From Arachnia rubra (GTDB taxonomy: Bacteria; Actinomycetota; Actinomycetes; Propionibacteriales; Propionibacteriaceae), in contig NZ_AP024463.1 in NCBI RefSeq assembly GCF_019973735.1, positions 2,294,001 to 2,358,000 on the forward strand: 64,000 nt of DNA, given 5' to 3'. Positions 34,211 to 49,077 of the stretch are shown one piece after another. Each line of letters opens with the position of its first letter. Positions within the stretch are counted from its first letter, which is position 1. The notes beneath the pieces were generated by a model that worked only from the letters and a program-made list of their open reading frames with translations, was not told the origin of the DNA and searched no databases. A program made the position numbers and the translations under genes.

Positions 34211-36124
34211 ATGAGACGGCTGATGACGTGGGTGCTGCTCCTGGCAGCGGTCATCACTGGCGTTGTCGCCTCCCCTGCCCGGGCGGAGGGCAGCGTCGAT
34301 GTGAACATCAGTTCCGTCTCCCCGCAGCTGCTGGACCTGTCCCACCCGGACCAGACCATCACCATCAGCGGCACGGTGCGCAACAACACTGACCATTCCC
34401 TCAGCAAGGCCAGCGTCCATTTCTGGCGCTCCACCGCCCCCATCACGGAACACGACGACCTCCAGCAGACGCTCACCTCCGAGCCCACGCAGCCACTCGG
34501 CAGAAGGCTCGTGGGGGCCAACAACTACCAGGACCTGGGAGAGCTCGCGCCCGGAGCCTCGATGAGGTTCACGGTGAGCGCGACCGTGCAGGACCTGAAC
34601 CTGCCCAAGGCTGACAGCGCCTATCTGCTGGGGGTCCATCTGCGGGCCGACGCCCCTGACGGGAACCATCTCACGGCGGGACGGGGCCGCGTGCTGGCCA
34701 TCGCATCCAAGAAACCACTGCCGGTGTCGAATGTCGTCAAGCTCGCTGCCCAGCCGACCCTACTGGACGGCAGCGACTTCCAGAACGACTCCCTGGAGTC
34801 CCAGCTGGTCGGTGAGCTCTCCGAGCTCCTGGCCGCAGCCGAGAAGCCAGGCGCGTACACCCTCCTGGACCCGTCGCTGCTGGTGGAGGTCCGGGCCCTG
34901 GCCGAGGAACACACCGTGGCCGGAACCCGCACCCCGCCCAGCCAGAACGCACAGGATTTCTTGAATCGGCTCAACACCCTGATCAGTGCGGGACGGGTGA
35001 TGCGGCTGCCCTTCGGGAATCCCGACCTGGCGCGGCTCCACGCGACCGGGGACCTCAGCAGTTTCGAGACCGCACTCAGCTGGTCGGAGACCGCCCTGAA
35101 AACCGCTGAGCTCGGGGCCATAGCCGATGCTCCGCTTGTCGCGGACCTGGGGGACAACGACAGCCAGGACCTGGCGCTGACCCTCGCGCTCCACGGCTTC
35201 AAGAAGGTGTTCGGGAACAATTTCACCTCCAGCGGGATGATCAGCACCACGGACCACAGCGTCAAAGCCCACGCCCTGCGCGTGTCCTCCCTGGTGCTTC
35301 CCGGCATCGGCCCCGGCAACACCCTCACCGAGGCCCAGATCGCCGGCCGCCGCCTGGCGGAGGGACTGCTCGATGGCTCGCCGACGATCCATCTGGTGCG
35401 TTCCGCGGCGGACATCGACCGCGCCGCCCTGCTGGAGGGGGCCGAGACCGCCGCCACCCTCCCCGAACCCCGAGAGCAGGCGCGCTATGCGGACACCACC
35501 ACGCGGGCAACCCCATGGCCCAAGCTGCGATCCCAGATACAGGGGATGTTCGACTCATCCCAGCTCCTGGAGGAGGTCACTGGTACCGATCGCAAAGCCC
35601 TGAACGCGGCAATCGCGGCGCGCTCCTTCAGCAGCGGCTTCAATTCCGAGGCGGAGGCGATGGCGTTCGTCAGCGCCACCCCCAGCGAGAAACTGGATGC
35701 CACAAAGGTCAGGCTGAGCGTCTCCAGCCAGTTCGTGATGGGATCCGAGAAGAACGAATTCCCCGTCACGATCACCAATCCGTTACCCGTCAAAGTGACG
35801 GTGAAGGTGAATTTCACCAGCAACTCCCCCAAACGTATCTGGGTCGAATCATCGGAGCTGGTGACCCTGGAGCCGGGCGAGCAGCGGACGGTGAACGTCA
35901 CCCTCCACAGCGCCGCGAACGGTGTGGTGATGGTGCGGGCCCAGCTGGCGACGCAGGAGGGGACCCGCTTCGGACCGGAGGCGCCGGTGGAGATCACGGC
36001 GACCGGCCTGGGGCGCGTCGGCTGGATCATCATCATCGTCTCGGGTGCAGTAGTGGTGGGAGGCACATTCCTGCGTATCAGGGCGGTGCAACGGGAACGA
36101 GCCAGGGAGAGTCGTGAGCAGTAA
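34211..36124 (+). CDS. DUF6049-type secreted protein anchored by a C-terminal helix
   Basis: The 637-residue extracytoplasmic protein has a signal peptide (MRRLMTWVLLLAAVITGVVA..ARA, about 1-26), a beta-rich domain (VDVNISSVSPQLLDLSHPDQ), a central alpha/beta region and a late beta domain (VTITNPLPVKVTVKVNFTS, LEPGEQRTVNVTL). A single membrane helix near the end (IIIIVSGAVVVGGTFLRIRA) and a short basic tail follow. Proteins of this kind sit directly upstream of murJ in many Actinobacteria; function is unknown. ATG 34211 is chosen because it starts the signal peptide; an earlier start at 34097 would overlap the divergent riboswitch leader. It overlaps murJ by 11 nt. Confidence 0.82.
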   Translation: MRRLMTWVLLLAAVITGVVASPARAEGSVDVNISSVSPQLLDLSHPDQTITISGTVRNNTDHSLSKASVHFWRSTAPITEHDDLQQTLTSEPTQPLGRRLVGANNYQDLGELAPGASMRFTVSATVQDLNLPKADSAYLLGVHLRADAPDGNHLTAGRGRVLAIASKKPLPVSNVVKLAAQPTLLDGSDFQNDSLESQLVGELSELLAAAEKPGAYTLLDPSLLVEVRALAEEHTVAGTRTPPSQNAQDFLNRLNTLISAGRVMRLPFGNPDLARLHATGDLSSFETALSWSETALKTAELGAIADAPLVADLGDNDSQDLALTLALHGFKKVFGNNFTSSGMISTTDHSVKAHALRVSSLVLPGIGPGNTLTEAQIAGRRLAEGLLDGSPTIHLVRSAADIDRAALLEGAETAATLPEPREQARYADTTTRATPWPKLRSQIQGMFDSSQLLEEVTGTDRKALNAAIAARSFSSGFNSEAEAMAFVSATPSEKLDATKVRLSVSSQFVMGSEKNEFPVTITNPLPVKVTVKVNFTSNSPKRIWVESSELVTLEPGEQRTVNVTLHSAANGVVMVRAQLATQEGTRFGPEAPVEITATGLGRVGWIIIIVSGAVVVGGTFLRIRAVQRERARESREQ

Positions 36125-39100
36125 GACCAGTGGTGAAGTGAGCAGCACCCGCAAGTTGCTTTCCGCAAGCGCCCTGATGACAGCGGGAACGCTCGTCTCC
36201 CGGGGCCTCGGCATCCTGCGCACGATGCTGATCGCCTTCATCCTCGGCAACGGCACCCGGCAGGCGGACATCCTGTCCTTGGCCAACACCATCTCCAACG
36301 GCATGTACTTCCTGTTCGTGGGAGGTGCGGTCAACACGGTCTTGGTACCGCAGATCGTGCGGGCCATCCGCCATGACGAGGACGGCGGCGAGGCCTTCAC
36401 GAACCGGCTGATGACCGCCTTCATGCTGGTCATCAGCGTCGTCACCGTGGTCCTGACGGTCGCCGCCCCACTGATTACCTTCTTATATTCCTCAGACGCC
36501 TACCGCTCCGCTGACCTGGAGACTCAATACGCCTCGATGGTGGCGCTGACCTACTGCACTCTCCCGCAGATCTTCTTCTACGGCGTCTACACGATCCTGG
36601 GGCAGGTGCTCAATGCACGGGACCAGTTCGGTCCCATGATGTGGGCCCCGATCGCCAACAACGTCATTGGGCTCGCGGTGCTCGGACTCTACCTGGTGGC
36701 CTGGGGAACCGGCGGAGACCACTCGGGGGCCTTCACCAATGAGCAGACGCTGCTGCTCGGTCTCGGCTCCACCGCCGGTATCGCCGCCCAGGCGCTGGTG
36801 CTGATCCCGTTCGTGCGGAAGGTGGGATTCCGGTTCCGGCCCCGTTTCGATCTGAGGGGAACTGGACTCGGCAAGACATTCCAGCTCGCAAAGTGGACTC
36901 TCGGCTTCGTCCTGATCAACCAGATCGTCCTCATGCTGGTGACCCGCCTGGCCACCTCGGCAACAGCTGCTGGCACGGGCGGCGGCTCCAATGTTTACAC
37001 AAATGCCAACCTGATCTGGATGATGCCGCACTCCCTGATCACGGTCTCCCTGGCAACCGCGATGTTGCCGAATGCCTCACGGCTGGCCGCCGAGGGAGAT
37101 CTCGATGGCGTTGCAGCCGAGGCCCGCAAAACCATGCGGCTATCACTGATGGCCCTGATTCCTGCATCGGCAGTCTTTCTAGCGCTCGCCGACCCCCTGG
37201 CCACGTTGTTGTTCGGTCACGGCCAGGGCAGCCGCGACGCCGTGCTGATCGCCTGGGCGCTGGCGGCCTTCGCCCTCGGGACGGTGCCCTTCAGCGTCCA
37301 GTTCATCTGCCTGCGCACCTTCTACTCCCTGGAGAACACCAAGACCCCATTCCTGCTGCAGTGTGTCATCGGCAGCGTCAATGCCGGCGGCGCGCTCCTG
37401 CTGGTGCACCTGGTGCAGGATCCCTCCTGGACGGCCGCGGCGCTGGCCGCGGCATATTCCCTGGCCTACCTCGTGGGAGTCCAGCTCAGCTGGCGGCAGT
37501 TGAAACGCAGCCTGCCCAGCCTGGATGGCCGCGATCTCCTGATGCACATCGCCCGCCTCGGAATCGGGGCGGGCAGCGGAGCGGTGGTCGCCTGGCTCCT
37601 GTCGGGCTGGATCACCGGCGCCCTCCCCGGAGGGAAACTGGGGCCGCTGCTGGCTCTCGGCATAGGCAGCGGCCTGATCGGAGCCACCTTCTTCGGGGTG
37701 GGAAGACTGCTCAAGGTCCGGGAGCTTGCCAGCCTGGGAGACATGGTGCGTTCCCGGCTTGGCCGCGGCAAACCCTCCGACAAACCGGAGGAGGAACAAC
37801 CGGAACAGGAATCGGCACTCCCCAAGATCCCGACCATCGGGCCCGAGCCCGCCACCGTCGCGGCCCTGGCAGACGACCTCATGCCCACGGGCCTGCAGAC
37901 GGTCATCGCCGATGGCAACTTCAACGGCTGGAATGCGGCCCGCATCCCGGAGGAGTCCATGTCGGCGGCCCTCGAACTGCCCAGCCTGGTGCGGGACCTC
38001 AGCCAGGAGTCCACCGACGACATGCTGAAGACCAGGACCAGCCCGGCAGTGCGGGAAACCCCCGAGCCCGTCGAGCAGGACATGCATTCGCAGGTCATCG
38101 GGCCGGATGAGCCGTCGTTCTTCGAGGGCGTCGACGAGATCACCGCAGGACAGCGATTGATGAACACCGGCGACCTGCTGTCGACGCGGTTCCGCATCGA
38201 GGAACTGATCATGGTCCGGGACGGCATCGAGACGTGGCGCTCCCACGACCTGGTGCTCTCCCGCGACGTCGTGGCGCACGTTATACCAGCGGACAGCCCG
38301 TACAGCAATGACCTGCTGCAGGCGGCCCGCAAGGGCGCGATCGCCACCGACTCGCGTTTCCTGCGGGTCCTAGACGCGGTCAGTCTCGAGGATGATTCCC
38401 GCGGGCTCAGTGGGTACATCGTCTGCGAATACGCACAGGGCAGTTCGCTGGCGGAGCTGCTGAAACACGGACCGCTGAGCGCCCTTGAGGCAGCCTGGGT
38501 GGTGCGGGAGCTGGCCGATGCGCTCACCTCGCTGCATGGGCAGGGCCTGTTCCACGAGCAGCTGACCCCCGACAATGTGGTGATCACGAACCTCGGCGCC
38601 GTGAAACTGGTCGGGTTCGGCGTGGAAGCGGGTTTCCACCCGAACTCCTCAGTGAAATGGAGCGACCGCGAGGCCGCAGACGTGCGGGGACTCGCGAGCC
38701 TGCTGTACGCGATGCTGGTGCTGCGCTGGCCGGGTGGGAATGCCTGGGGCCTGGAGGCGGCCCCCGTCATCGCGGGCGAGCCGGCTCCGCCACACACCGT
38801 CGCCACCGGCGTCTCCCCGGCACTGGACCAGATCTGCACAGCTGCCCTGACCGAGCGGGGAGCGGCATCGGACCACAGGATCACGACCGCGTCCCAGCTG
38901 GCGGCGGCGCTCGCCTCCGTGCTGGGGACCGCGGATGCCTCCGCGGATCTGGAGGCCCGGGTCAGGCAGCCCCAGAATCCGATCCCAGGCAATCTGCGGC
39001 CTGCCACGCTCGAACCAATGCCCGCGCCCGACGCAGCGGCAACGCAGATACAGCCTGCGGTCAGCCAGCAGCCTCGCCAGAAAGTGGTGGAGACCAGCGC

Positions 39101-39770
39101 TGTGGAGGACGTGAAGTCCGCCAAAAACACCTACGAGGGTAGGCCTCTGCTCTGGATGGCGCTGCTGGCTGCCATCGCGACACTCGTAATCTCCCTGATA
39201 GTGGTCGCGATCAACAGTCTTGGCCCAAGGCCAAGCACCGGCGATTCCGCTGCGCCCAGCCCGGCGGCAAGCGAGTCGCAGGGAACCTCCGAGGCCGGCA
39301 CCGTCGTGCCGGTGGCCAGTGCGAATGACTTCGACCCGCGGGCGGACAACGGCAATGGTGAGGAGCATGCGGACCAGGCGAAGAACGCCATCGACGGCGA
39401 CGCTGGGACGGGCTGGTCCACTGTGAAGTACTGGACTTCGGCGATGGGCGGCGAGAAACCCGGTGTCGGCCTGGTCCTGGACCTCGGACAGCCCGTCCAG
39501 ATCGGTGAGGTCGAGGTGAACTTCGCCGCGGCCGGCGAGAACGTCGAGTTGCGGGTCCCAGCCAAGGAGGCGACAGACAAGGCCCCCATGGACCGCCAAG
39601 CCCAGTGGAAGGCGGTCGCTAACGCCGAAGGTGCTGCTGAGAAGACAGTGCTGAAGCCGTCGGAGCCGGTGACGAGCCGCTACCTGCTGGTCTACCTCAC
39701 GAAACTGCCGGAGGTCTCCAAGGACCGCTACTCGGCGACCATCAACGAAATCGTCGTCAAACACGGCTGA
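36114..39770 (+). CDS. murJ: MurJ lipid II flippase fused to a pseudokinase and an extracellular domain
   Basis: The 1218-residue protein begins (GTG 36114) with a MATE/MOP-fold MurJ region (about 15-560, around 14 hydrophobic segments; LVSRGLGILRTMLIAFILG). MurJ flips lipid II for peptidoglycan synthesis. An acidic linker (about 565-680) leads to a kinase-like domain (about 685-930) in which the catalytic loop reads FHEQLTPDNVVI instead of HRDxKxxN and DFG is GFG, so it is a pseudokinase. After it come a membrane helix (LLWMALLAAIATLVISLIVV, about 1010-1033) and a discoidin-like extracellular domain (NAIDGDAGTGWSTVKYW). The same layout is known for mycobacterial MviN, whose pseudokinase is phosphorylated by PknB and binds FhaA. 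Confidence 0.92.
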   Translation: MSSKTSGEVSSTRKLLSASALMTAGTLVSRGLGILRTMLIAFILGNGTRQADILSLANTISNGMYFLFVGGAVNTVLVPQIVRAIRHDEDGGEAFTNRLMTAFMLVISVVTVVLTVAAPLITFLYSSDAYRSADLETQYASMVALTYCTLPQIFFYGVYTILGQVLNARDQFGPMMWAPIANNVIGLAVLGLYLVAWGTGGDHSGAFTNEQTLLLGLGSTAGIAAQALVLIPFVRKVGFRFRPRFDLRGTGLGKTFQLAKWTLGFVLINQIVLMLVTRLATSATAAGTGGGSNVYTNANLIWMMPHSLITVSLATAMLPNASRLAAEGDLDGVAAEARKTMRLSLMALIPASAVFLALADPLATLLFGHGQGSRDAVLIAWALAAFALGTVPFSVQFICLRTFYSLENTKTPFLLQCVIGSVNAGGALLLVHLVQDPSWTAAALAAAYSLAYLVGVQLSWRQLKRSLPSLDGRDLLMHIARLGIGAGSGAVVAWLLSGWITGALPGGKLGPLLALGIGSGLIGATFFGVGRLLKVRELASLGDMVRSRLGRGKPSDKPEEEQPEQESALPKIPTIGPEPATVAALADDLMPTGLQTVIADGNFNGWNAARIPEESMSAALELPSLVRDLSQESTDDMLKTRTSPAVRETPEPVEQDMHSQVIGPDEPSFFEGVDEITAGQRLMNTGDLLSTRFRIEELIMVRDGIETWRSHDLVLSRDVVAHVIPADSPYSNDLLQAARKGAIATDSRFLRVLDAVSLEDDSRGLSGYIVCEYAQGSSLAELLKHGPLSALEAAWVVRELADALTSLHGQGLFHEQLTPDNVVITNLGAVKLVGFGVEAGFHPNSSVKWSDREAADVRGLASLLYAMLVLRWPGGNAWGLEAAPVIAGEPAPPHTVATGVSPALDQICTAALTERGAASDHRITTASQLAAALASVLGTADASADLEARVRQPQNPIPGNLRPATLEPMPAPDAAATQIQPAVSQQPRQKVVETSAVEDVKSAKNTYEGRPLLWMALLAAIATLVISLIVVAINSLGPRPSTGDSAAPSPAASESQGTSEAGTVVPVASANDFDPRADNGNGEEHADQAKNAIDGDAGTGWSTVKYWTSAMGGEKPGVGLVLDLGQPVQIGEVEVNFAAAGENVELRVPAKEATDKAPMDRQAQWKAVANAEGAAEKTVLKPSEPVTSRYLLVYLTKLPEVSKDRYSATINEIVVKHG

Positions 39771-41709: not shown

Positions 41710-42330
41710 CTAGGCCCCGACCAGGGGAGGGTAGGGCTCGATCCAGGTGTGGGAGCGGTCAGTTGTCCATCTGGTCACATGGCCGAGGTGCTCGGTGGGT
41801 AGGTATCCGGCCTTGAGGTCCGCGACCGGCACCGGCAGGGCTCCTGTTAAGTCAGCGACCTCCGGGATCAGGTCGGTCACCACAGCCACCACCGGTATCC
41901 TGAGGCTCTTCCGGTTTGCCACCAGGGTCGCCAGCACCTCATCGCCGATCCCGCGAGCCACCAATACGATCGGCTGGTGCTGGGCAATGGGTTCCATCAA
42001 CTCCCGCATCGTGACGCCGGTACCGTCGATGATCAGCACACTGGCATCCTCTAGCTCGGCACGACCATGTGCGTCAGCGAATCCCAGAGCTGCAAGCCCG
42101 ATCTCAAGCCGCTCACCCCTTGGCTTCCCCTGGTCTGGCGTTTCCCCGGCAGCCGGCGCCGGCAGGTCGTCGATCTCGGACTGAGTCAGGTATTCGGGCC
42201 TCCCCTCGTCCCCACCTCCCGTGGACTCCCCCTCTAGCCGGCGCCGGCGGAGCATGTCCAGCCAGACGGCAAGCGCCAGCAGAAACAACCCAATGACCAG
42301 CGCCCACAGCAACCCGTCCAGCTCTCCCAT
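41710..42330 (-). CDS. Membrane-anchored protein resembling an isolated GroEL apical domain
   Basis: The 206-residue protein has one N-terminal membrane helix (LLWALVIGLFLLALAVWL, about 7-24), a basic RRRR stop-transfer, an acidic/proline linker (about 33-75) and one folded domain. Residues 92-197 follow the GroEL apical domain in order: LEDASVLIIDG (GroEL LESPFILLAD), MRELMEPIAQHQPIVLVA ([22 protein letters not shown]), DEVLATLVANR (GEALATLVVN), IPVVAVVTD (VKVAAVKAP), VADLTGA (IATLTGG) and HLGHVTRWTTDRSHTWI (DLGQAKRVVINKDTTTII). The equatorial and intermediate domains and all ATP residues are absent. The basic RRRR after the helix points to the domain lying in the cytoplasm. It sits next to the tRNA-Lys. 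ATG 42330 is used because a longer frame from 42591 reads through the tRNA. Function unknown. Confidence 0.75.
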   Translation of the reverse strand: MGELDGLLWALVIGLFLLALAVWLDMLRRRRLEGESTGGGDEGRPEYLTQSEIDDLPAPAAGETPDQGKPRGERLEIGLAALGFADAHGRAELEDASVLIIDGTGVTMRELMEPIAQHQPIVLVARGIGDEVLATLVANRKSLRIPVVAVVTDLIPEVADLTGALPVPVADLKAGYLPTEHLGHVTRWTTDRSHTWIEPYPPLVGA

Positions 42331-42396: not shown

Positions 42397-42469
42397 GCCC
42401 CTATAGCTCAGTTGGCAGAGCAGTGGACTTTTAATCCATGGGTCGCGGGTTCGAACCCCGCTGGGGGCA
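42397..42469 (+). tRNA. tRNA-Lys (anticodon TTT)
   Basis: The 73-nt cloverleaf has acceptor GCCCCTA pairing with TGGGGGC, D-arm AGCTCAGTTGGCAGAGC, an anticodon stem-loop with CTTTTAA (anticodon TTT, lysine), T-arm CGGGTTCGAACCCCG and discriminator A. No CCA is encoded. It lies at the boundary between chromosomal genes and the conjugative element, and its 3' half is the probable attachment core. Confidence 0.96.
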
Positions 42470-42817
42470 CGAGGGGGCCGCCGCAGCAGCAAACCCCCGG
42501 GCCGCGGCGGATCTCGTCCCCGCAGCCGCGACGGGCAGGTAGCCGGCATCATCCTGGGCGACGCGCTGCGGCAAGATGTCCCTGAGCTCAATCTGCAACA
42601 GCTCGGATGTCACGTACAGGTCATTGAGTGACCATCCGATCTCACCCCGCAGCTTCCTGCCAGCATTGGAGCCAGTCACTCCAAGCGCATCACCAAGCTG
42701 CTTCCGGGTGACTCGTCGCTGGAACATCAGGTTGTTCACGGCAATACCCACCGCCTCGTCGGCGCTGTAGGTACTGATGAGGCCCGCATCGCGAGCTGTT
42801 TCTAGGTCCCTGGCCAT
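42431..42817 (-). CDS. Xre-like HTH regulator whose 3' end lies in the tRNA gene
   Basis: The 128-residue protein has an N-terminal helix (MARDLETARDAGLI) and a lambda-repressor-type HTH (RRVTRKQLGDALGVTGSNAG, about residues 32-51) followed by LRGEIGWSLNDLYVTSELLQ. It resembles small regulators found at the ends of actinobacterial elements. ATG 42817 is preferred; earlier codons run into the divergent promoter. The last 12 residues (CPQRGSNPRPMD) and the stop are the antisense of the tRNA-Lys, so the ORF crosses the probable att core and would change its C-terminus when the element excises. Divergent from the HTH gene at 42899. Confidence 0.72.
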   Translation of the reverse strand: MARDLETARDAGLISTYSADEAVGIAVNNLMFQRRVTRKQLGDALGVTGSNAGRKLRGEIGWSLNDLYVTSELLQIELRDILPQRVAQDDAGYLPVAAAGTRSAAARGFAAAAAPSCPQRGSNPRPMD

Positions 42818-42862: not shown

Positions 42863-42891
42863 TTGACAAACAACTTGGACGCGCAGCACAC
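42863..42891 (+). promoter_or_regulatory. Possible -35/-10 promoter for a leaderless HTH gene
   Basis: TTGACA at 42863-42868 is a perfect -35 box. A weak -10 (GCACAC/CACACT) begins 17 nt further, which would place transcription start at about 42898-42899, the GTG of the HTH gene. No ribosome site precedes that GTG, so a leaderless mRNA is likely. Just upstream, CGCACAAAACGCACAAC forms a short direct repeat that could be an operator for the divergent Xre protein. Confidence 0.45.
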
Positions 42892-42898
42892 TAGGCGC

Positions 42899-43207
42899 GT
42901 GAGCGCGCGAAAAACACACGATGCCACCAAAAAAGAGTGGATCGGCACTGAAGAGGCGGCCGATTGGATCCCTGGTGCCTCGAAGCGGAGCGTCCGACAT
43001 TGGTGCGCCTCCGGGTTACTTCCGGGGGCGATTCAGTTGCCGTCGGGTCGGTGGCAGATTCCGTGGTCGGCTGTGGTTGCGGTGTTGGGGTTCGATCCTG
43101 CTGCGGGGTCGTCCGATGGGGTCGGGGTGTCCCCCTTCCCGGCCCTGCCGGATGATCCTGATGGGCGGGGCGGTGTGGATCCGTTACCTGGTGTTGAGGA
43201 GCCGTGA
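42899..43207 (+). CDS. Small HTH (excisionase/MerR-like) DNA-binding protein
   Basis: The 102-residue protein carries a winged-HTH of the excisionase/MerR type: WIGTEEAADWIPGASKRSVR, then HWCASGLLPGAIQLPSGRWQI and PWSAVVAVLG. An acidic Pro/Gly-rich tail follows. Such proteins act as recombination directionality factors or regulators. GTG 42899 is taken as start; a TTG at 42863 in the same frame coincides with a -35-like TTGACA and is unlikely. It ends 1 nt before the next ATG, so it is co-transcribed with the replication-like gene. Confidence 0.65.
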   Translation: MSARKTHDATKKEWIGTEEAADWIPGASKRSVRHWCASGLLPGAIQLPSGRWQIPWSAVVAVLGFDPAAGSSDGVGVSPFPALPDDPDGRGGVDPLPGVEEP

Positions 43208-43208
43208 G

Positions 43209-44372
43209 ATGTCGATCTGGGCGGTGAACTGGGCTTTTCAGTTGGATGTGCCGAATCAGACGCACAAGTTGGTGTTGTTGTCGTTGGCGAACTTCGCGGA
43301 TGATGAGGATGAGGCGTGGCCTCATGTCGAGACCTTGGCGAAGATGGCGTCGGTGTCGGTGCGTTCGGTGTTTCGGGCGTTGGCGGCGTTGGAGGCTGCT
43401 GGGTTGATCTCCCGGACGATGGGGTTGCGGGAGAACGCTGGGGGTGGGTTGCGGAAGTCGAATTCGTTGTACCGGCTGCATGTGCCGGATGAGGTGTCTC
43501 GGAGGGCTGGCCGGGGCGAGGGCCGCCCCAAGCTGCTGCGTGAAGCTCCTAGTGGGAGCCAACCTGACACTGGTGTCATGTTGGCTGCTGTCGCGGATAA
43601 AACCCCTAGTGGGAGCCAATGTGACACGGGTGTCACATTGGCTGACCAACATGACACTGGTGGCACCACCAACATGACACCAGTGTCAGGTCTCTATAAG
43701 GAAAACCCATCACATATAGAACCACCAACCCCCCTACCCCCCACGCCGCCGGCGGCGGCCGTGGTGCTGGCGGACGGGTCTGGTGGGGTCGGGTCAGGAT
43801 CTGAATCCGACTCCGACGTCGAAGATTCCCGGGGTGGTGTTGGCCTGCCGGCGGCTGGGTCGGCTCCGGCCGGTGGCCGGGCCGTCTCCCCCAACGCTGA
43901 CGGCGGTGTTGTGCCGGTGGGGCGTGATGTGGCGGCTGACTGGGTCTTGATCCGGCACGCGCTGCCGGAGCCGATGCAGGTCCTCGACGACGACGGCGTC
44001 GCTGTGGTGGCGCCGCTGCTGCGGGAACGCCTAGATGCAGGCTGGACCGCGGCCGATCTGCGGGCGCATCTGGCGGTGAATCCGATACCGGCCCGGGTCC
44101 GGCATCTCGCAGGCCTGGTGGCGCACCGCTTGTCGAAACTTCCGCCGGAAGGGGCTCCGAAGTCGTCGCCGTCCAAGCGGCGGGTACCGGATCCGCCGTC
44201 GATGCCGCCGTTGCGGCCGGAGGAGCGTCATCCGGTGGCGGTGCGGGCGGAGGAGGCTCGGGCGGAGGCGATCCGGACAGGATCGCCTGATGCAGGCCGG
44301 TCACGAGTTTGGTGGCTGATGCGTGAAATGGAAGCGGCCTCGAAGGCGGCGGAGGGTATGTCGGGGGTCTGA
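43209..44372 (+). CDS. Replication-initiator-like wHTH protein
   Basis: The 387-residue protein has an N-terminal winged helix of the kind found in phage and plasmid replication proteins (MSIWAVNWAFQLDVPNQTHK, then WPHVETLAKMASVSVRSVFR and ALAALEAAGLISR). A low-complexity middle (about 115-240) follows, then a C-terminal helical part (MQVLDDDGVAVVAPLLRER; AGWTAADLRAHLAVNPIP). The middle of the gene contains four palindromic repeats at 43565-43688 and then an AT-rich run. That is the lambda O plan, in which the initiator gene holds its own origin. No catalytic motif is visible, so an initiator role is inferred. ATG 43209 directly follows the upstream TGA. Confidence 0.62.
   Translation: MSIWAVNWAFQLDVPNQTHKLVLLSLANFADDEDEAWPHVETLAKMASVSVRSVFRALAALEAAGLISRTMGLRENAGGGLRKSNSLYRLHVPDEVSRRAGRGEGRPKLLREAPSGSQPDTGVMLAAVADKTPSGSQCDTGVTLADQHDTGGTTNMTPVSGLYKENPSHIEPPTPLPPTPPAAAVVLADGSGGVGSGSESDSDVEDSRGGVGLPAAGSAPAGGRAVSPNADGGVVPVGRDVAADWVLIRHALPEPMQVLDDDGVAVVAPLLRERLDAGWTAADLRAHLAVNPIPARVRHLAGLVAHRLSKLPPEGAPKSSPSKRRVPDPPSMPPLRPEERHPVAVRAEEARAEAIRTGSPDAGRSRVWWLMREMEAASKAAEGMSGV
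43565..43688. repeat. Four palindromic iterons (TGACAC-NN-GTGTCA), candidate origin
   Basis: Copies start at 43565 (TGACACTGGTGTCA), 43622 (TGACACGGGTGTCA), 43652 (TGACACTGGTGGCA, one arm imperfect) and 43675 (TGACACCAGTGTCA). The second sits in a 26-nt near-perfect palindrome (43616-43641, arms CCAATGTGACAC). The first and second are also preceded by the direct repeat CTAGTGGGAGCCAA. Immediately downstream (about 43690-43725) the sequence is AT-rich (CTCTATAAGGAAAACCC, CACATATAG), as expected for an unwinding region. Confidence 0.8.
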
Positions 44373-44444
44373 TTGTTGGGGTTCTCGTCTAGGTAATTGT
44401 CAGTTTGTGTTGATACTTGTTTTCGGGTTTACAGGAGGAAGATG

Positions 44445-44687
44445 ATGATGTTTTTGTTGGAGATCAAGGACGTCAAGTTTGATACGACGTTGTTGAATTT
44501 GATTTTGGATGGCTTGGGGGCTTTGATCGGTATTGGGGGCGGTGTGTGGGCTGTTTGGGGTTTGGTGCAGTTGGGGATCCAGTTCTTTGGTGAGCGCGAT
44601 GGTAGTGGGATGAAGACTGCGTTGAATCACATGATGGGTGGCGCGATCATTGCGGCGGCGGGAACTGCTTTGGTTGCTTTGCTGTGA
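44445..44687 (+). CDS. Maff2/VirB2-like small membrane protein
   Basis: The 80-residue protein has two hydrophobic segments (LLNLILDGLGALIGIGGGVW, and MMGGAIIAAAGTALVALL at the end) around a short polar FFGERDGSGMKTALNH. It resembles the Maff2-type small proteins that open the T4SS cluster of Gram-positive conjugative elements and occupy the VirB2 (pilin-like) place. Several ATGs (44442, 44445, 44448) follow AGGAGG; 44445 gives the best spacing. First gene of the transfer operon. Confidence 0.68.
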   Translation: MMFLLEIKDVKFDTTLLNLILDGLGALIGIGGGVWAVWGLVQLGIQFFGERDGSGMKTALNHMMGGAIIAAAGTALVALL

Positions 44688-44699
44688 GGTGTTGTCGTG

Positions 44700-45584
44700 A
44701 TGGTGTTGTTGGAGGCGTGGACGGATACGATTTTGCGTCCGATCTTGACGGATTTGTCGTCGGGGTTGGGTTCGATGTTCGGTTTGTCGATGGCTACCGT
44801 GCTGGAGTCCCCTGAGGCGTGGGGGGATAATCATGATGCTACTGCGCAGGTAGCGGGTTATGTGTCGACGATTTCGACTGCGTTGATGGAGACCGCTGCC
44901 GCTGTTGTGTTGGTGATCTTGTTTCTCATTGAAATGCATCGTGTGATGTTGATGACCGATGGGGATGGGGACACAAAACTTCGGATGAGTGTGTTCACAT
45001 GGGTCAAGTTTGGTGTTGTGTGGGCGGTGTTTCATCAGACCCCGGCTATTTTAGCGGCGATCTACCAGTTTGGCACGTCGGTGGCATCGGAAACCAACAA
45101 GCTATTCACCTCCGAGGTGTGGCCGGATCGTGATTTTGATGAGTTCTTGGGGGCGGTGAAGGATCTCGATTGGCTGGGACAGACCGTGTTGGTGGTGTTG
45201 ATGCTGCTGGCGTGGCTCATCAACAAAGGTGCTGTGCTGGGTGGATTCGCCTTGGTGGTGATGCGTTTCATTAAGTTGTACATTTATGGGGCTTTTGCTC
45301 CGGTGCCGATGGCGATGATGGTTTCAGACCATACTCGTTCGTTCGGGATTGGTTTCATCAAGAATTACGCTGCTACTGTGTTGCAGTCGTTTGTGTTGGT
45401 GATTCTTTTTGGGATTTACACGATTCTGACGACGCGGTGGGCTGGGGCTGCGATGACGGGCTTGCCTGAGGGGGGCGTGGCTGCGGCGTTCTCATTGGGT
45501 GGGAAGTTCATTTTCATGGGGATCCTGCTGGGGATGCTTGTGATGGGATCAGGGAAGATCGCAAGCGAGCTACTAGGAGGCTGA
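44700..45584 (+). CDS. VirB6-like polytopic membrane protein
   Basis: The 294-residue protein has about six hydrophobic segments (such as AAAVVLVILFLIEMHRVMLM, WLGQTVLVVLMLLAWLINKG, VLQSFVLVILFGIYTILTTR) and a last one near the C-terminus (FIFMGILLGMLVMG). Its length, topology and place between the Maff2-like and PrgI/VirB4 genes fit the VirB6-type channel subunit (CD0411/TrbL-like) of Gram-positive T4SSs. ATG 44700 or the adjacent GTG 44697 both follow GAGGTG. Codon use is notably TTG/GTG-rich. Confidence 0.75.
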   Translation: MVLLEAWTDTILRPILTDLSSGLGSMFGLSMATVLESPEAWGDNHDATAQVAGYVSTISTALMETAAAVVLVILFLIEMHRVMLMTDGDGDTKLRMSVFTWVKFGVVWAVFHQTPAILAAIYQFGTSVASETNKLFTSEVWPDRDFDEFLGAVKDLDWLGQTVLVVLMLLAWLINKGAVLGGFALVVMRFIKLYIYGAFAPVPMAMMVSDHTRSFGIGFIKNYAATVLQSFVLVILFGIYTILTTRWAGAAMTGLPEGGVAAAFSLGGKFIFMGILLGMLVMGSGKIASELLGG

Positions 45585-45585
45585 C

Positions 45586-46263
45586 ATGAGGAAATTTACT
45601 GGGCTACTGCTGGCGGCCACCGCTGTTGCGGGGCTGGTGTCGTGTGGGGCGTCGGTGGAGCAGGTCCGGAAGGATGCTGCGGAACGGCTGGATGGCATGG
45701 TTTTCATCGACGACAAGGACCAGGTGCGTTCGAAGCTGGAGGCCGCGAAGAGCGTTGACGAGGTGACCTCGGTGATCGATGCAGCAGCGGTGGAGGATCA
45801 GGCGGCGGCTGATAAGTATTGGCCGTGTGCTGAGCAGGCCGTGGCCAAGTTGAATTCTGGCGTGACGTGGACTGCTGCGTCCTCCACGACCGACGGCAGC
45901 AAGCTCGTGTGGGCGGCGCTTGCTCTCAGACCTGATGGGGTCGCGTCGATGGAGGTCACCGACAAGGGAGTCAATGTGGCTCATGAGCCGTTGAAAGGGG
46001 CGGTGTGGATCGAGAAGCTGGCCGGGAAAGTCACTGGGTGGAGCAGTGACGCAACCGAGTTGGTTTCGAAGCGGCGCGTGATCGGCGAGAAGAAACCTAG
46101 GTTCGATGGTCCGGGTAGCTGCGAGTTCCAGTTCAATTTGACGCTGACCACGTCCGCTGCGACTGAGGCGGTGCAGGTACGGATGGAGTACTACAAGACG
46201 TCCTACCAGCCGGGTTTGATCATTGACGGGGCGGCGTTCCGGGACCTGGAAAGTGGTAGGTAG
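45586..46263 (+). CDS. Conjugation-cluster lipoprotein
   Basis: The 225-residue protein has the signal peptide MRKFTGLLLAATAVAGLVSC|G with a clear lipobox, then a helical stretch (EQVRKDAAERLDGMVFIDDK, EVTSVIDAAAVEDQAAADKY) and a beta-rich domain (GVTWTAASSTTDGSKLVW; CEFQFNLTLTTSAATEAVQV). I do not recognise the family. It is set within 2 nt of both neighbours in the transfer operon, so it is probably a surface component of the T4SS. Confidence 0.7.
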   Translation: MRKFTGLLLAATAVAGLVSCGASVEQVRKDAAERLDGMVFIDDKDQVRSKLEAAKSVDEVTSVIDAAAVEDQAAADKYWPCAEQAVAKLNSGVTWTAASSTTDGSKLVWAALALRPDGVASMEVTDKGVNVAHEPLKGAVWIEKLAGKVTGWSSDATELVSKRRVIGEKKPRFDGPGSCEFQFNLTLTTSAATEAVQVRMEYYKTSYQPGLIIDGAAFRDLESGR

Positions 46264-46265
46264 AT

Positions 46266-46664
46266 ATGGCAATCGAAATGCGTGTCTATGCGGAGATCAC
46301 GGAGATCGATCCGAAAGTCATGGGGGGATTGACCTGGCGGCAAATGGGAGCGGTCGGAATTCTGGCGTTCGCTACTGCCGCTGTAGGGTTCGTGTTGTTC
46401 ATGGTTTTCGGTCTTGAGAGTATCCGAATGCTACCGTTCGCGATTGCTCCTGTAGCGGCCCCTGTGGGGGCGTGGGCATGGGTGAGACCTATGGGTATCC
46501 GCACGGAGAAATGGGCGCCTCATATGCTGCGCACGTCATTGTCGCCGAAGCGTCTTTTGTATTTGAATCATTCACCGAACTCGGAAGATTCTGTTCGATT
46601 CCCGGGAAGGAATAACCATGTTTCTTGGAAAGAAGCGAAACGACGGAAAGAAGCAGGAGCCTGA
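46266..46664 (+). CDS. PrgI-family (VirB3-like) membrane protein
   Basis: The 132-residue protein has two adjacent hydrophobic segments (MGAVGILAFATAAVGFVLFM and MLPFAIAPVAAPVGAWAW) after a short N-terminus (VYAEITEIDPKVMGGLTWRQ), then a basic cytoplasmic tail. This is the PrgI family pattern; PrgI precedes the VirB4 ATPase in Gram-positive T4SSs and corresponds to VirB3. It overlaps the virB4 start by 47 nt. Confidence 0.85.
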   Translation: MAIEMRVYAEITEIDPKVMGGLTWRQMGAVGILAFATAAVGFVLFMVFGLESIRMLPFAIAPVAAPVGAWAWVRPMGIRTEKWAPHMLRTSLSPKRLLYLNHSPNSEDSVRFPGRNNHVSWKEAKRRKEAGA

Positions 46665-49077
46665 CAGCAAGCCATCGGGGCGTCTGGAAGTCGGTCACGG
46701 CAGGAAACGCTCGAAACGACGTAACGGGAAGACGAAGAAGAAGTCGCGTTTGATGCGGCGGGCGCAGGAGTTTTTGTGGTATGAGTCGATGCTTGAATCC
46801 GGCGTGTGTGTTCTCGGTGGCGGCTTGTATTCCGCATGCTTGAAGTTGTCTGATATTAATTATCAGATGGCGACGGATGAGCAGCAGCATTCGATTCTGG
46901 AATCGTATGCTCAGTTGTTCAACAAGTTCGGGTCGGGTGAGCATTTGGCGGTCACGATCATGAATCGCCGTGTCGAGCGCCGTAATTTGGTGGGGCGTGT
47001 GTTGTTCCCGGAGCCCAGGTACGGGGATGAGTTCACGGCGTTGCGGAGTGATCACAATCGGATCGTGCACGCCAGCATCGGAGATCGGAAGTACGTGATC
47101 GTCACCGAGAAGTATTTGACGTTAACGGTGAAAGCGTCGGACCTCGAGGAAGCGAAAGCGCGACTGGATCGTCTTGTGACATTGGTGGCCAAACACATGT
47201 TGGGGTTATTGCAGTGCCGCGCGGAGCAGTTGGATGGTGTGGGCAGGATCGAGCTGCTACGGGAATGGACTCGTGGCTGCTACGCGAAAGGGTTCGACTA
47301 TGCCGCAATGGATTTGTCCGGTGCGACAACTCATGACGAGTTGGCTCCGCAGGCGGTGGAGTTGGGAGACCGGTCACGTCTGGTACTGGTGGGCGACGAA
47401 GGTGAGCTGCACTACCAAGTACTGGTGATGCGGGACTATCCGACCTGGGTGGCGGATACGTTGTTCACCCGACTCTCGGAGGTACAGACCGATCTCGCGA
47501 TCACGTTCGTGGTGGAGCCGATTGACAAGGTAGAAGGCAAACAGCTGGTGCGAACGTATCGGGCGGGGTTGTCGATGGAACGCCAGGACGCCCGCAGACG
47601 GGCGTTGAAGGCAGATATGGACCCCGAATATGACTTGCCCGAGCGGGTCATCAACGGTATGGAAGAAGTTCGTGATCTGCAGCAGGCGATGGATCAGCAG
47701 GATCAGCGGTTGTTCACCACCACCTTGGTGGTGATGGTACGAGCAGAAAGCAAGGAGGAATTGGCGAAACGTGTTGACCAGGTACGTAAAGCAGCCAAGG
47801 GCGAGTCGTGTGAGTTGTCGTTCTTGAAGTTTTGGCAGGAGGAAGGCTTCAACACCGCACTGCCGTTGGGGTTGTCGCTGGTACCATTTCATCGAACACT
47901 GACCACAGCGTCGGTGGCGGTAATGATGCCCTTTACGTCGCAGGAGATTTTGGACGACCAAGGGTTGTTCTACGGCATCAATTCCACCACTAGGAATCCG
48001 ATCATCATGGATCGACGAGCCACTAGGAACGGTAATGCGTTCAATCTCGGCACCAGCGGCTCTGGCAAGTCTTATTTCACGAAATGGGAGATCGTGGAGG
48101 TGCTGCTGGGGCGCCCGAAGGACGTGATCATCATCATGGATCCCGAAAGGGAGTACCGTGCCTTGGTGGAAGCCCTGGGGGGCACCGTCATCGATATCCA
48201 CGCCGGCTCAACGCATTCGATCAACCTGTTCGACCTGGTGCTGTCGAATGTTGAAGGCGATCCGATCCGGCTGAAAACCGAAGCTGTGTTGGGGATGCTG
48301 CAAGTACTGCTGGGCGGAAACACGGGTATCGATGCCGCGGCGAAATCTTTGCTGGACCGCTGTATCACAGCGTTGTACCGTCGCTGGGCGGAAACCCCGC
48401 CTGAGCAGCAGGAGATGCCTACGCTGCGGGATCTCTACCACGAAGTCCGCGGTCAGGGCGACGAGGTCGCGGCTCAAGTGGCTGCCGCTTTGGAGATCTA
48501 CGCTGTTGGGTCGTATTCCGGGTTCGCGCGGCAAACGAATGTGGATACCAAACATCGACTGGTGTGTTACGACACCAGTCAGCTCGGCCCGAGTCTGCAA
48601 ACCTTCGGGATGATGGTGGTTTTGGACTCGATCTGGAACACGGTACAGCGCAATTACGGTAGTGGAATCCGCAGTTGGCTCTACATGGACGAGTTCAGTC
48701 TGCTGCTGGCAAACGAGCATGCCACCCAACAGGTCACCCAGTTCTACCAGAGGTTCAGGAAGTATGGTGGATTGCCGACTGCTATGTTGCAGAACATCAC
48801 TGCCTTGCTCGAGAACCCGTCCGCGTGCCGGATGTTGAACAATGCTGAGGTGTTGTTCTTGATGGGGCAGTCTCATACCGATGCGGACGCATTGGCAGAG
48901 CTGTTGGGGCTCTCTGAGGACGAGATTCGTGCATTCACCGCCGTGGAACCAGGATGTGGTCTGCTGCGTGTCGGAGCCACCACGATTCCGTTCAATGGTC
49001 GTAAACCCCACGACGGGCCGTTGAACGTCTTGTTCTCCACAACCTTCGAAGAAACAGGGGCCGGTCGTGGTCAATGA
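46618..49077 (+). CDS. virB4: VirB4/TraE-family T4SS ATPase
   Basis: The 819-residue motor of the secretion channel has a basic N-terminus (GRKRSKRRNGKTKKKSRLMR), a VirB4 N-terminal domain and a C-terminal ATPase. The ATPase has Walker A GTSGSGKSY (about 478-486), VIIIMDPEREYRALVEALGG, Walker B-like RSWLYMDEFSLLL and the late FRKYGGLPTAMLQNITALL segment typical of TraE/PrgJ/VirB4. ATG 46618 follows AAGGAATAACC inside prgI. It overlaps the next gene by 11 nt. It powers T4SS assembly and DNA transfer with the VirD4-like protein at 51615. Confidence 0.93.
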   Translation: MFLGKKRNDGKKQEPDSKPSGRLEVGHGRKRSKRRNGKTKKKSRLMRRAQEFLWYESMLESGVCVLGGGLYSACLKLSDINYQMATDEQQHSILESYAQLFNKFGSGEHLAVTIMNRRVERRNLVGRVLFPEPRYGDEFTALRSDHNRIVHASIGDRKYVIVTEKYLTLTVKASDLEEAKARLDRLVTLVAKHMLGLLQCRAEQLDGVGRIELLREWTRGCYAKGFDYAAMDLSGATTHDELAPQAVELGDRSRLVLVGDEGELHYQVLVMRDYPTWVADTLFTRLSEVQTDLAITFVVEPIDKVEGKQLVRTYRAGLSMERQDARRRALKADMDPEYDLPERVINGMEEVRDLQQAMDQQDQRLFTTTLVVMVRAESKEELAKRVDQVRKAAKGESCELSFLKFWQEEGFNTALPLGLSLVPFHRTLTTASVAVMMPFTSQEILDDQGLFYGINSTTRNPIIMDRRATRNGNAFNLGTSGSGKSYFTKWEIVEVLLGRPKDVIIIMDPEREYRALVEALGGTVIDIHAGSTHSINLFDLVLSNVEGDPIRLKTEAVLGMLQVLLGGNTGIDAAAKSLLDRCITALYRRWAETPPEQQEMPTLRDLYHEVRGQGDEVAAQVAAALEIYAVGSYSGFARQTNVDTKHRLVCYDTSQLGPSLQTFGMMVVLDSIWNTVQRNYGSGIRSWLYMDEFSLLLANEHATQQVTQFYQRFRKYGGLPTAMLQNITALLENPSACRMLNNAEVLFLMGQSHTDADALAELLGLSEDEIRAFTAVEPGCGLLRVGATTIPFNGRKPHDGPLNVLFSTTFEETGAGRGQ

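Follow-up and report, generated by a model that had tools for sequence, protein, structure and literature searches.

A gene of 206 codons lies on the reverse strand of a 64,000-nucleotide stretch of Arachnia rubra DNA (contig NZ_AP024463.1, positions 2,294,001 to 2,358,000), the whole of which we call the window. In its product, a hydrophobic N-terminal helix and the sequence RRRR are joined by a linker to a compact C-terminal domain homologous to the apical domain of GroEL. The original prediction, made from the letters of the window, had described a helix, a linker and a stand-alone apical domain, and this layout is borne out by sequence profiles, structure prediction and family-wide conservation. 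It had also held that the rest of the chaperonin is missing; matches of the 206-residue protein to GroEL models are indeed restricted to the apical part. The features are listed below with the evidence for each.

41710-42330, reverse strand: the whole gene, 206 codons and a stop, ATG start (open reading frame, translation, relatives)
42259-42315, reverse strand: core of the predicted membrane helix, residues ~6-24, with RRRR next (hydropathy, charge bias, model)
42151-42198, reverse strand: conserved linker motif PEYLTQSEIDDLPAPA, residues 45-60 (alignment A1, conservation by segment)
41734-42114, reverse strand: GroEL apical-domain homologue, residues 73-199, equivalent to GroEL ~193-334 with 281-286 deleted (profiles, structural comparison, alignment)
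41980-42009, reverse strand: equivalent of GroEL helix H, residues 108-117, M112 and I115 aligning with L234 and L237 (model secondary structure, alignment)
41902-41943, reverse strand: counterpart of GroEL helix I, residues 130-143, with L133, V137, A138 and N139 at L259, V263, V264 and N265 (model secondary structure, alignment)
41914-41916, reverse strand: codon of N139 (GroEL N265), the top conserved position of the family (conservation analysis)

Homology to the GroEL apical domain

That the C-terminal domain is homologous to the GroEL apical domain is certain. The window sequence alone matches NCBIfam GroEL models (best E 2.2e-5) and crystal structures of GroEL apical domains (best E 3e-4). 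Alignment A1, which holds no GroEL, comprises the window protein and 20 of 22 protein-database relatives; searched with its profile, 58 of 60 related genomes yield a full-length GroEL, the best E per genome ranging from 1.9e-15 to 2.8e-11. With a later alignment, A2 (55 rows), full-length GroEL frames score about 100 bits, and in genomes of the order's other families the best match per genome lies between 4.5e-29 and 2.9e-24, the matches listed being long frames. A further alignment, A4 (57 rows), reaches E 7.3e-28 against solved structures, and of the 64 PDB sequences matched by its profile (E up to 1e-5) the best 60 belong to Group I cpn60. The relation holds in reverse: NCBIfam GroEL models match all 57 A4 rows (E up to 0.001), and in 16 genomes searched with TIGR02348 this model finds the family member of one genome (G120) with E 2.0e-16, the match covering positions 173-332, and gives weaker family matches in six others. 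With hhalign the probability is 97.8 when A1 is used and 99.3 with 74 family rows. Chance resemblance to GroEL is ruled out by these match scores.

Why has the gene escaped annotation? No Pfam model matches: the window protein hits 0 families (E up to 1), as do all 57 A4 rows. Nor are the curated GroEL cut-offs reached, the window protein scoring 22.9 bits against 352 and a Microlunatus homologue, P0042, 61.6 against the TIGR02348 cut-off of 582.1. An equatorial ATP-binding domain was looked for in the 206-residue chain and is absent. In the same genome, TIGR02348 finds just two full-length GroELs, both located elsewhere.

The predicted fold agrees with the sequence. In structural comparisons with the models of the window protein and of the homologue, the 50 matches listed for each are Group I chaperonins; the aligned range is 191-336 on 1jon (GroEL 191-345) for the window protein, and 191-335 for the homologue. 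A viral library gave 8 matches at E 0.001, six named GroEL or Hsp60 and two nameless. The original prediction had named a missing fold match, or a better one to an unrelated Rossmann-like family, as grounds for giving it up; the outcome of both comparisons favours the apical domain, and with the viral matches in agreement an unrelated Rossmann-like or swivelling fold is rejected as far as the matches listed reach. Residues 281-286, which we take to be part of the ring contacts, R197, R322 and everything after ~335 are not retained as conserved residues, and new conserved positions have arisen at 306 (D), 310 (G), 313 (P), 323 (W) and 331 (W) in GroEL numbering.

The N-terminal helix, which spans residues 2-33 in the model of the window protein, was analysed by hydropathy and by lysine and arginine (K/R) charge bias over 73 family rows. 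A strong N-terminal hydrophobic stretch is present in 71 of them, the exceptions (L031, L036) being frames that start inside the gene. The K/R count is higher after the helix than before it in these same 71 rows, and before the helix it is zero in 68 of the 73. Under the positive-inside rule, by which the positively charged flank of a membrane helix faces the cytoplasm, the predicted topology is N-out/C-in, with the apical domain on the cytoplasmic side. This narrows the earlier suggestion that the protein serves membrane or secreted proteins: because the charge bias predicts a cytoplasmic domain, secreted proteins could be clients only before their export.

The family and its conserved segments

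The gene belongs to a family that forms a single clade, is under purifying selection and, in our limited searches, is confined to its own bacterial family, the Propionibacteriaceae (code f1), of which 198 genomes were searched. The A1 profile finds it in 136 of these (E up to 1e-16), and short frames matched by A2 add 11 (G060-G064, G078, G079, G091, G111, G184, G209), so that at least 147 of the 198 carry the gene. The helix-linker-apical layout, for which a survey of related actinobacteria had been proposed with the prediction, is conserved over the bacterial family. Named relatives come from [Pseudopropionibacterium] massiliense, Arachnia propionica, Microlunatus and Propionibacteriaceae bacteria. 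In genus g14, eight of nine genomes (G083-G090) gave no match to the gene, and neither did the searched genomes of g26 (four; G141-G144), g31 (one; G190), g32 (four; G191-G194) and g33 (one; G195). Setting lifestyle against presence or absence across genera could hint at function.

Outside the bacterial family, 24 genomes from three other families of the order were searched with the A1 profile; every open frame that it matched was at least 538 residues long, and one genome gave no match. Across the class, 393 genomes were searched with a threshold of E 1e-30, which would miss divergent members and does miss known ones in genus g8; the matches were three genomes of the own family and two 550-residue frames taken as GroEL. 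One candidate, a GroEL-model match in a 353-residue frame of genome G782, was discarded: the contig contains N and, by eye, has a GroEL fragment and a CheR-like protein run together. In the protein database, an A3 profile matches 368 proteins at E up to 0.001; among the 120 matches listed, those with names are all called hypothetical.

In a tree built by a quick method from 25 family rows and 45 GroELs, the family lies on one side of a branch whose Shimodaira-Hasegawa-like approximate likelihood-ratio test (SH-aLRT) value is 100. The family branches are much longer than those of GroEL, and in this tree of long branches the parent GroEL copy is not singled out. Members have diverged to ~25-40% identity, with ratios of nonsynonymous to synonymous substitution rates (dN/dS) of 0.11-0.44 in nine pairs, the mark of purifying selection. 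Some individual genes deserve mention. Genome G019 carries two quite different family copies (G019:C71:1950-2582 and G019:C93:99-758). In G008, whose genome is 60% complete, the family gene (G008:C1:805724-806358) was matched in three pieces and may be broken or contain a sequencing error. A divergent full-length GroEL-like frame in G044 (G044:C10:89388-90962) scores 245 bits, under the GroEL cut-off.

The linker is conserved to an unexpected degree for a spacer. In A1, the motif of residues 45-60 is conserved above all other segments (0.79, the apical domain reaching 0.66). In the Microlunatus types, conservation peaks in residues 26-65: 25 of 40 positions stand at 90% or more, and the mean majority fraction is 0.86 against 0.70 in the apical domain. 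With such strong conservation the linker is hardly likely to be a plain tether, and it may instead pack onto the domain or engage a partner. Order is predicted for it in P0042, a Microlunatus homologue whose model has a predicted local distance difference test score (pLDDT) of 82-83 over residues 41-60 and 94-97 over residues 61-80; in the window protein it is not predicted ordered (pLDDT 43-62 over residues 31-70). Part of the motif, YLTQSEIDDLP (residues 46-56; window 42163-42195, reverse strand), resembles the N-terminal motif of FliM, a flagellar protein, probably by chance.

Residues of the substrate and GroES groove were mapped on Escherichia coli GroEL (row L082), using hydrophobic substrate-binding positions that we take from the GroEL mutant literature and adding N265 for a test of ten positions. 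The window protein has L, A, G and F at 199, 201, 203 and 204, M and I at 234 and 237, and L, V, A and N at 259, 263, 264 and 265; large hydrophobic residues thus occupy six of the eight hydrophobic positions (199, 204, 234, 237, 259, 263). Family-wide conservation was computed from 80 sequence-weighted rows. N265 leads at 0.98, and the fraction of large hydrophobics is 0.96 at L237, 0.92 at F204, 0.88 at L259, 0.85 at L234 and 0.79 at Y199, falling to 0.45 at V264, 0.28 at V263 and 0.03 at Y203; polar positions average 0.10. The Microlunatus types (n = 120) retain Y199, S201, F204, L234, L237, E238, T261, V264 and N265 nearly throughout.

The surroundings of the gene

The nearest upstream feature is a tRNA gene.

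42397-42470, forward strand: tRNA-Lys(ttt), divergent, 66 bases upstream of the gene (locus survey)

In 21 of 41 loci examined, some of them cut by contig ends, tRNA-Lys(ttt) stands head-to-head with the gene within 1.6 kb. Downstream of the window gene, on the same strand, lies a gene of the cation-efflux family (PF01545). A DUF202 gene follows directly 3' on the same strand, with a gap of at most 50 bases or a slight overlap, in 6 of the 41 loci (L042, L043, L046, L061, L064 and L065; these followers encode membrane proteins, and the overlap in L046 is one base). Relatives of Zincin_1 and SH3_3 occur in 23 and 33 of the 41 loci, usually downstream and before tRNA-Glu(ttc). The window locus has no DUF202, Zincin_1 or SH3_3 gene beside the gene.

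By eye, genes resembling those of a conjugative element start just past tRNA-Lys (window 42863-49077, forward strand) and include a VirB4-like ATPase at 46618-49077. Allowing up to 3 mismatches, no second copy of the tRNA-Lys 3' end occurs in the rest of the window. On the forward strand at 36114-39770, a frame of 1218 residues appears by eye to combine a MurJ/MviN-like flippase, a kinase-like region and a C-terminal domain.

Possible functions and known systems

What might a detached apical domain do at the membrane? We lean, by a modest degree, towards an ATP-independent, membrane-tethered peptide-binding minichaperone (holdase) or adaptor. A single-pass inner-membrane protein would bear the apical domain on its cytoplasmic side. 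Its groove of helices H and I would bind extended hydrophobic peptide segments without ATP and without encapsulation, as minichaperones (isolated apical domains) do in vitro; these segments could be exposed stretches of clients near the membrane or the loop of a partner. The conserved juxtamembrane segment might dock on the apical domain as a regulator or bind a specific membrane partner. This proposal is supported by the homology and predicted fold, by the conserved N265 and the mostly large hydrophobics at F204, L234, L237 and L259, by the six of eight hydrophobic positions filled in the window protein, by the better kept groove of the Microlunatus types, by a domain extent close to that of a minichaperone, and by the K/R bias and dN/dS. 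The laboratory minichaperone GroEL 191-345 refolds proteins without ATP, as passages of PMC9138447 report.

Several observations weigh against a peptide-binding holdase. The original prediction looked to conserved hydrophobics in the groove, and this stands for the Microlunatus types, where the ten groove positions match the GroEL residue more often than the rest (0.73 vs 0.41, p 0.009), but not for all 80 rows (0.46 vs 0.39, p 0.26), and the window protein itself has G at Y203 and A at V264. The eight hydrophobic groove positions average 0.65 large hydrophobics, the same as 41 other hydrophobic positions (0.65); since the latter are presumably mostly core, the groove signal may be partly structural. 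Even the Microlunatus types replace V263 by E in 118 of 120, Y203 by D in 102 and L259 by R or Q in 40. Almost no family member retains Y203; V264 is retained only in the Microlunatus types and has mostly given way to A elsewhere in the family. For GroEL minichaperones, the avidity of a ring is said to be important. In 5 of the 73 rows another, weaker hydrophobic stretch (1.84-1.90) leaves single-pass topology short of proof. Finally, operon logic gives no help as a clue, no functional link emerging from the 41 loci.

The apical fold might instead be the scaffold of a dedicated adaptor that holds one fixed partner and no unfolded clients, binding it through a new surface specific to the family (DLxAGYxP plus the Trp in the last strands) together with the juxtamembrane motif. 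The new conserved positions 306, 310, 313, 323 and 331, the weak conservation of the groove across the whole family and, in the Microlunatus types, a juxtamembrane segment that outranks the apical domain all suit this alternative, for which the apical-like domain in the kinase PIKfyve, as described in passages of PMC2846930, would be a precedent. We hold it to be a real but lesser possibility: conserved N265, F204, L234 and L237 would be needless for a pure scaffold unless they are structural. More doubtful is a self-gated membrane minichaperone, whose juxtamembrane segment would lie as a pseudo-substrate in its own GroES/peptide groove until displaced by clients or a membrane partner. If true, bacteria would possess a natural chaperone that consists of a chaperonin apical domain only, in which an intramolecular switch replaces the ATP-driven release cycle.

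A receptor for the GroES loop would account for the top rank of N265 and the keeping of L234 and L237. Passages of PMC3514286 report that L234, L237 and V264 of GroEL are contact sites for the mobile loop of GroES and that N265A abolishes GroES binding and spares substrate binding; the genome also encodes one GroES beside its two GroELs. We think it unlikely, because V264 is mostly Ala outside the Microlunatus types, a single domain would lack sevenfold ring avidity and N265 may be structural. It is very improbable that the domain lies outside the membrane and protects exported proteins. The N-terminal hydrophobic helix, as in many exported proteins, and the earlier suggestion of secreted clients speak for such a holdase; the K/R excess after the helix (71 of 73 rows) and its absence before (68 of 73) speak against it. 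Least credible of all is a decayed GroEL paralogue or a functionless chance resemblance: much of GroEL is missing, the family changes more rapidly than GroEL and was not found in whole genera, but the match scores exclude the chance-resemblance part.

How does the minichaperone or adaptor that we favour compare with known systems? Its apical domain is homologous to that of GroEL/Hsp60 (Group I), but the equatorial domain is absent and the intermediate domain is a sliver at most; residues 281-286 are deleted, nothing follows ~335, and a membrane helix and linker have been added. The ring and ATPase parts behind the ATP-driven cycle of GroEL's heptameric double ring are missing from the family sequence. 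Because it lacks the equatorial domain, the family is chaperonin-derived rather than a chaperonin itself. Fab1_TCP of PIKfyve/Fab1 is likewise an apical domain outside a chaperonin, and is closest to CCT3, a Group II chaperonin (passages of PMC2846930). It is eukaryotic and sits within a large kinase, whereas the present family is bacterial, stand-alone and Group I-like, the best 60 of its 64 PDB matches being Group I cpn60.

The original prediction knew of no described family with this layout, and in our searches of open-access papers we too found no description of such a bacterial family, only minichaperone constructs, PIKfyve and chaperonin reviews. A testable function is proposed for at least a few hundred proteins that have no Pfam domain and are called hypothetical where named among the matches listed. 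Minichaperones are known as laboratory fragments of GroEL, and to our knowledge it has so far been an open question whether an apical domain alone could be of use to a cell. Here a bacterial family has retained a natural one, apparently membrane-tethered and with boundaries nearly those of the engineered fragment 191-345 (a longer fragment is 191-376), over a time in which its members diverged to ~25-40% identity; ATP-free binding would be expected by analogy. Unlike the engineered minichaperones, the family protein is natural, is predicted to be membrane-anchored and has a partly diverged groove, and it offers a natural system for asking what peptide binding does without ATP or a cage.
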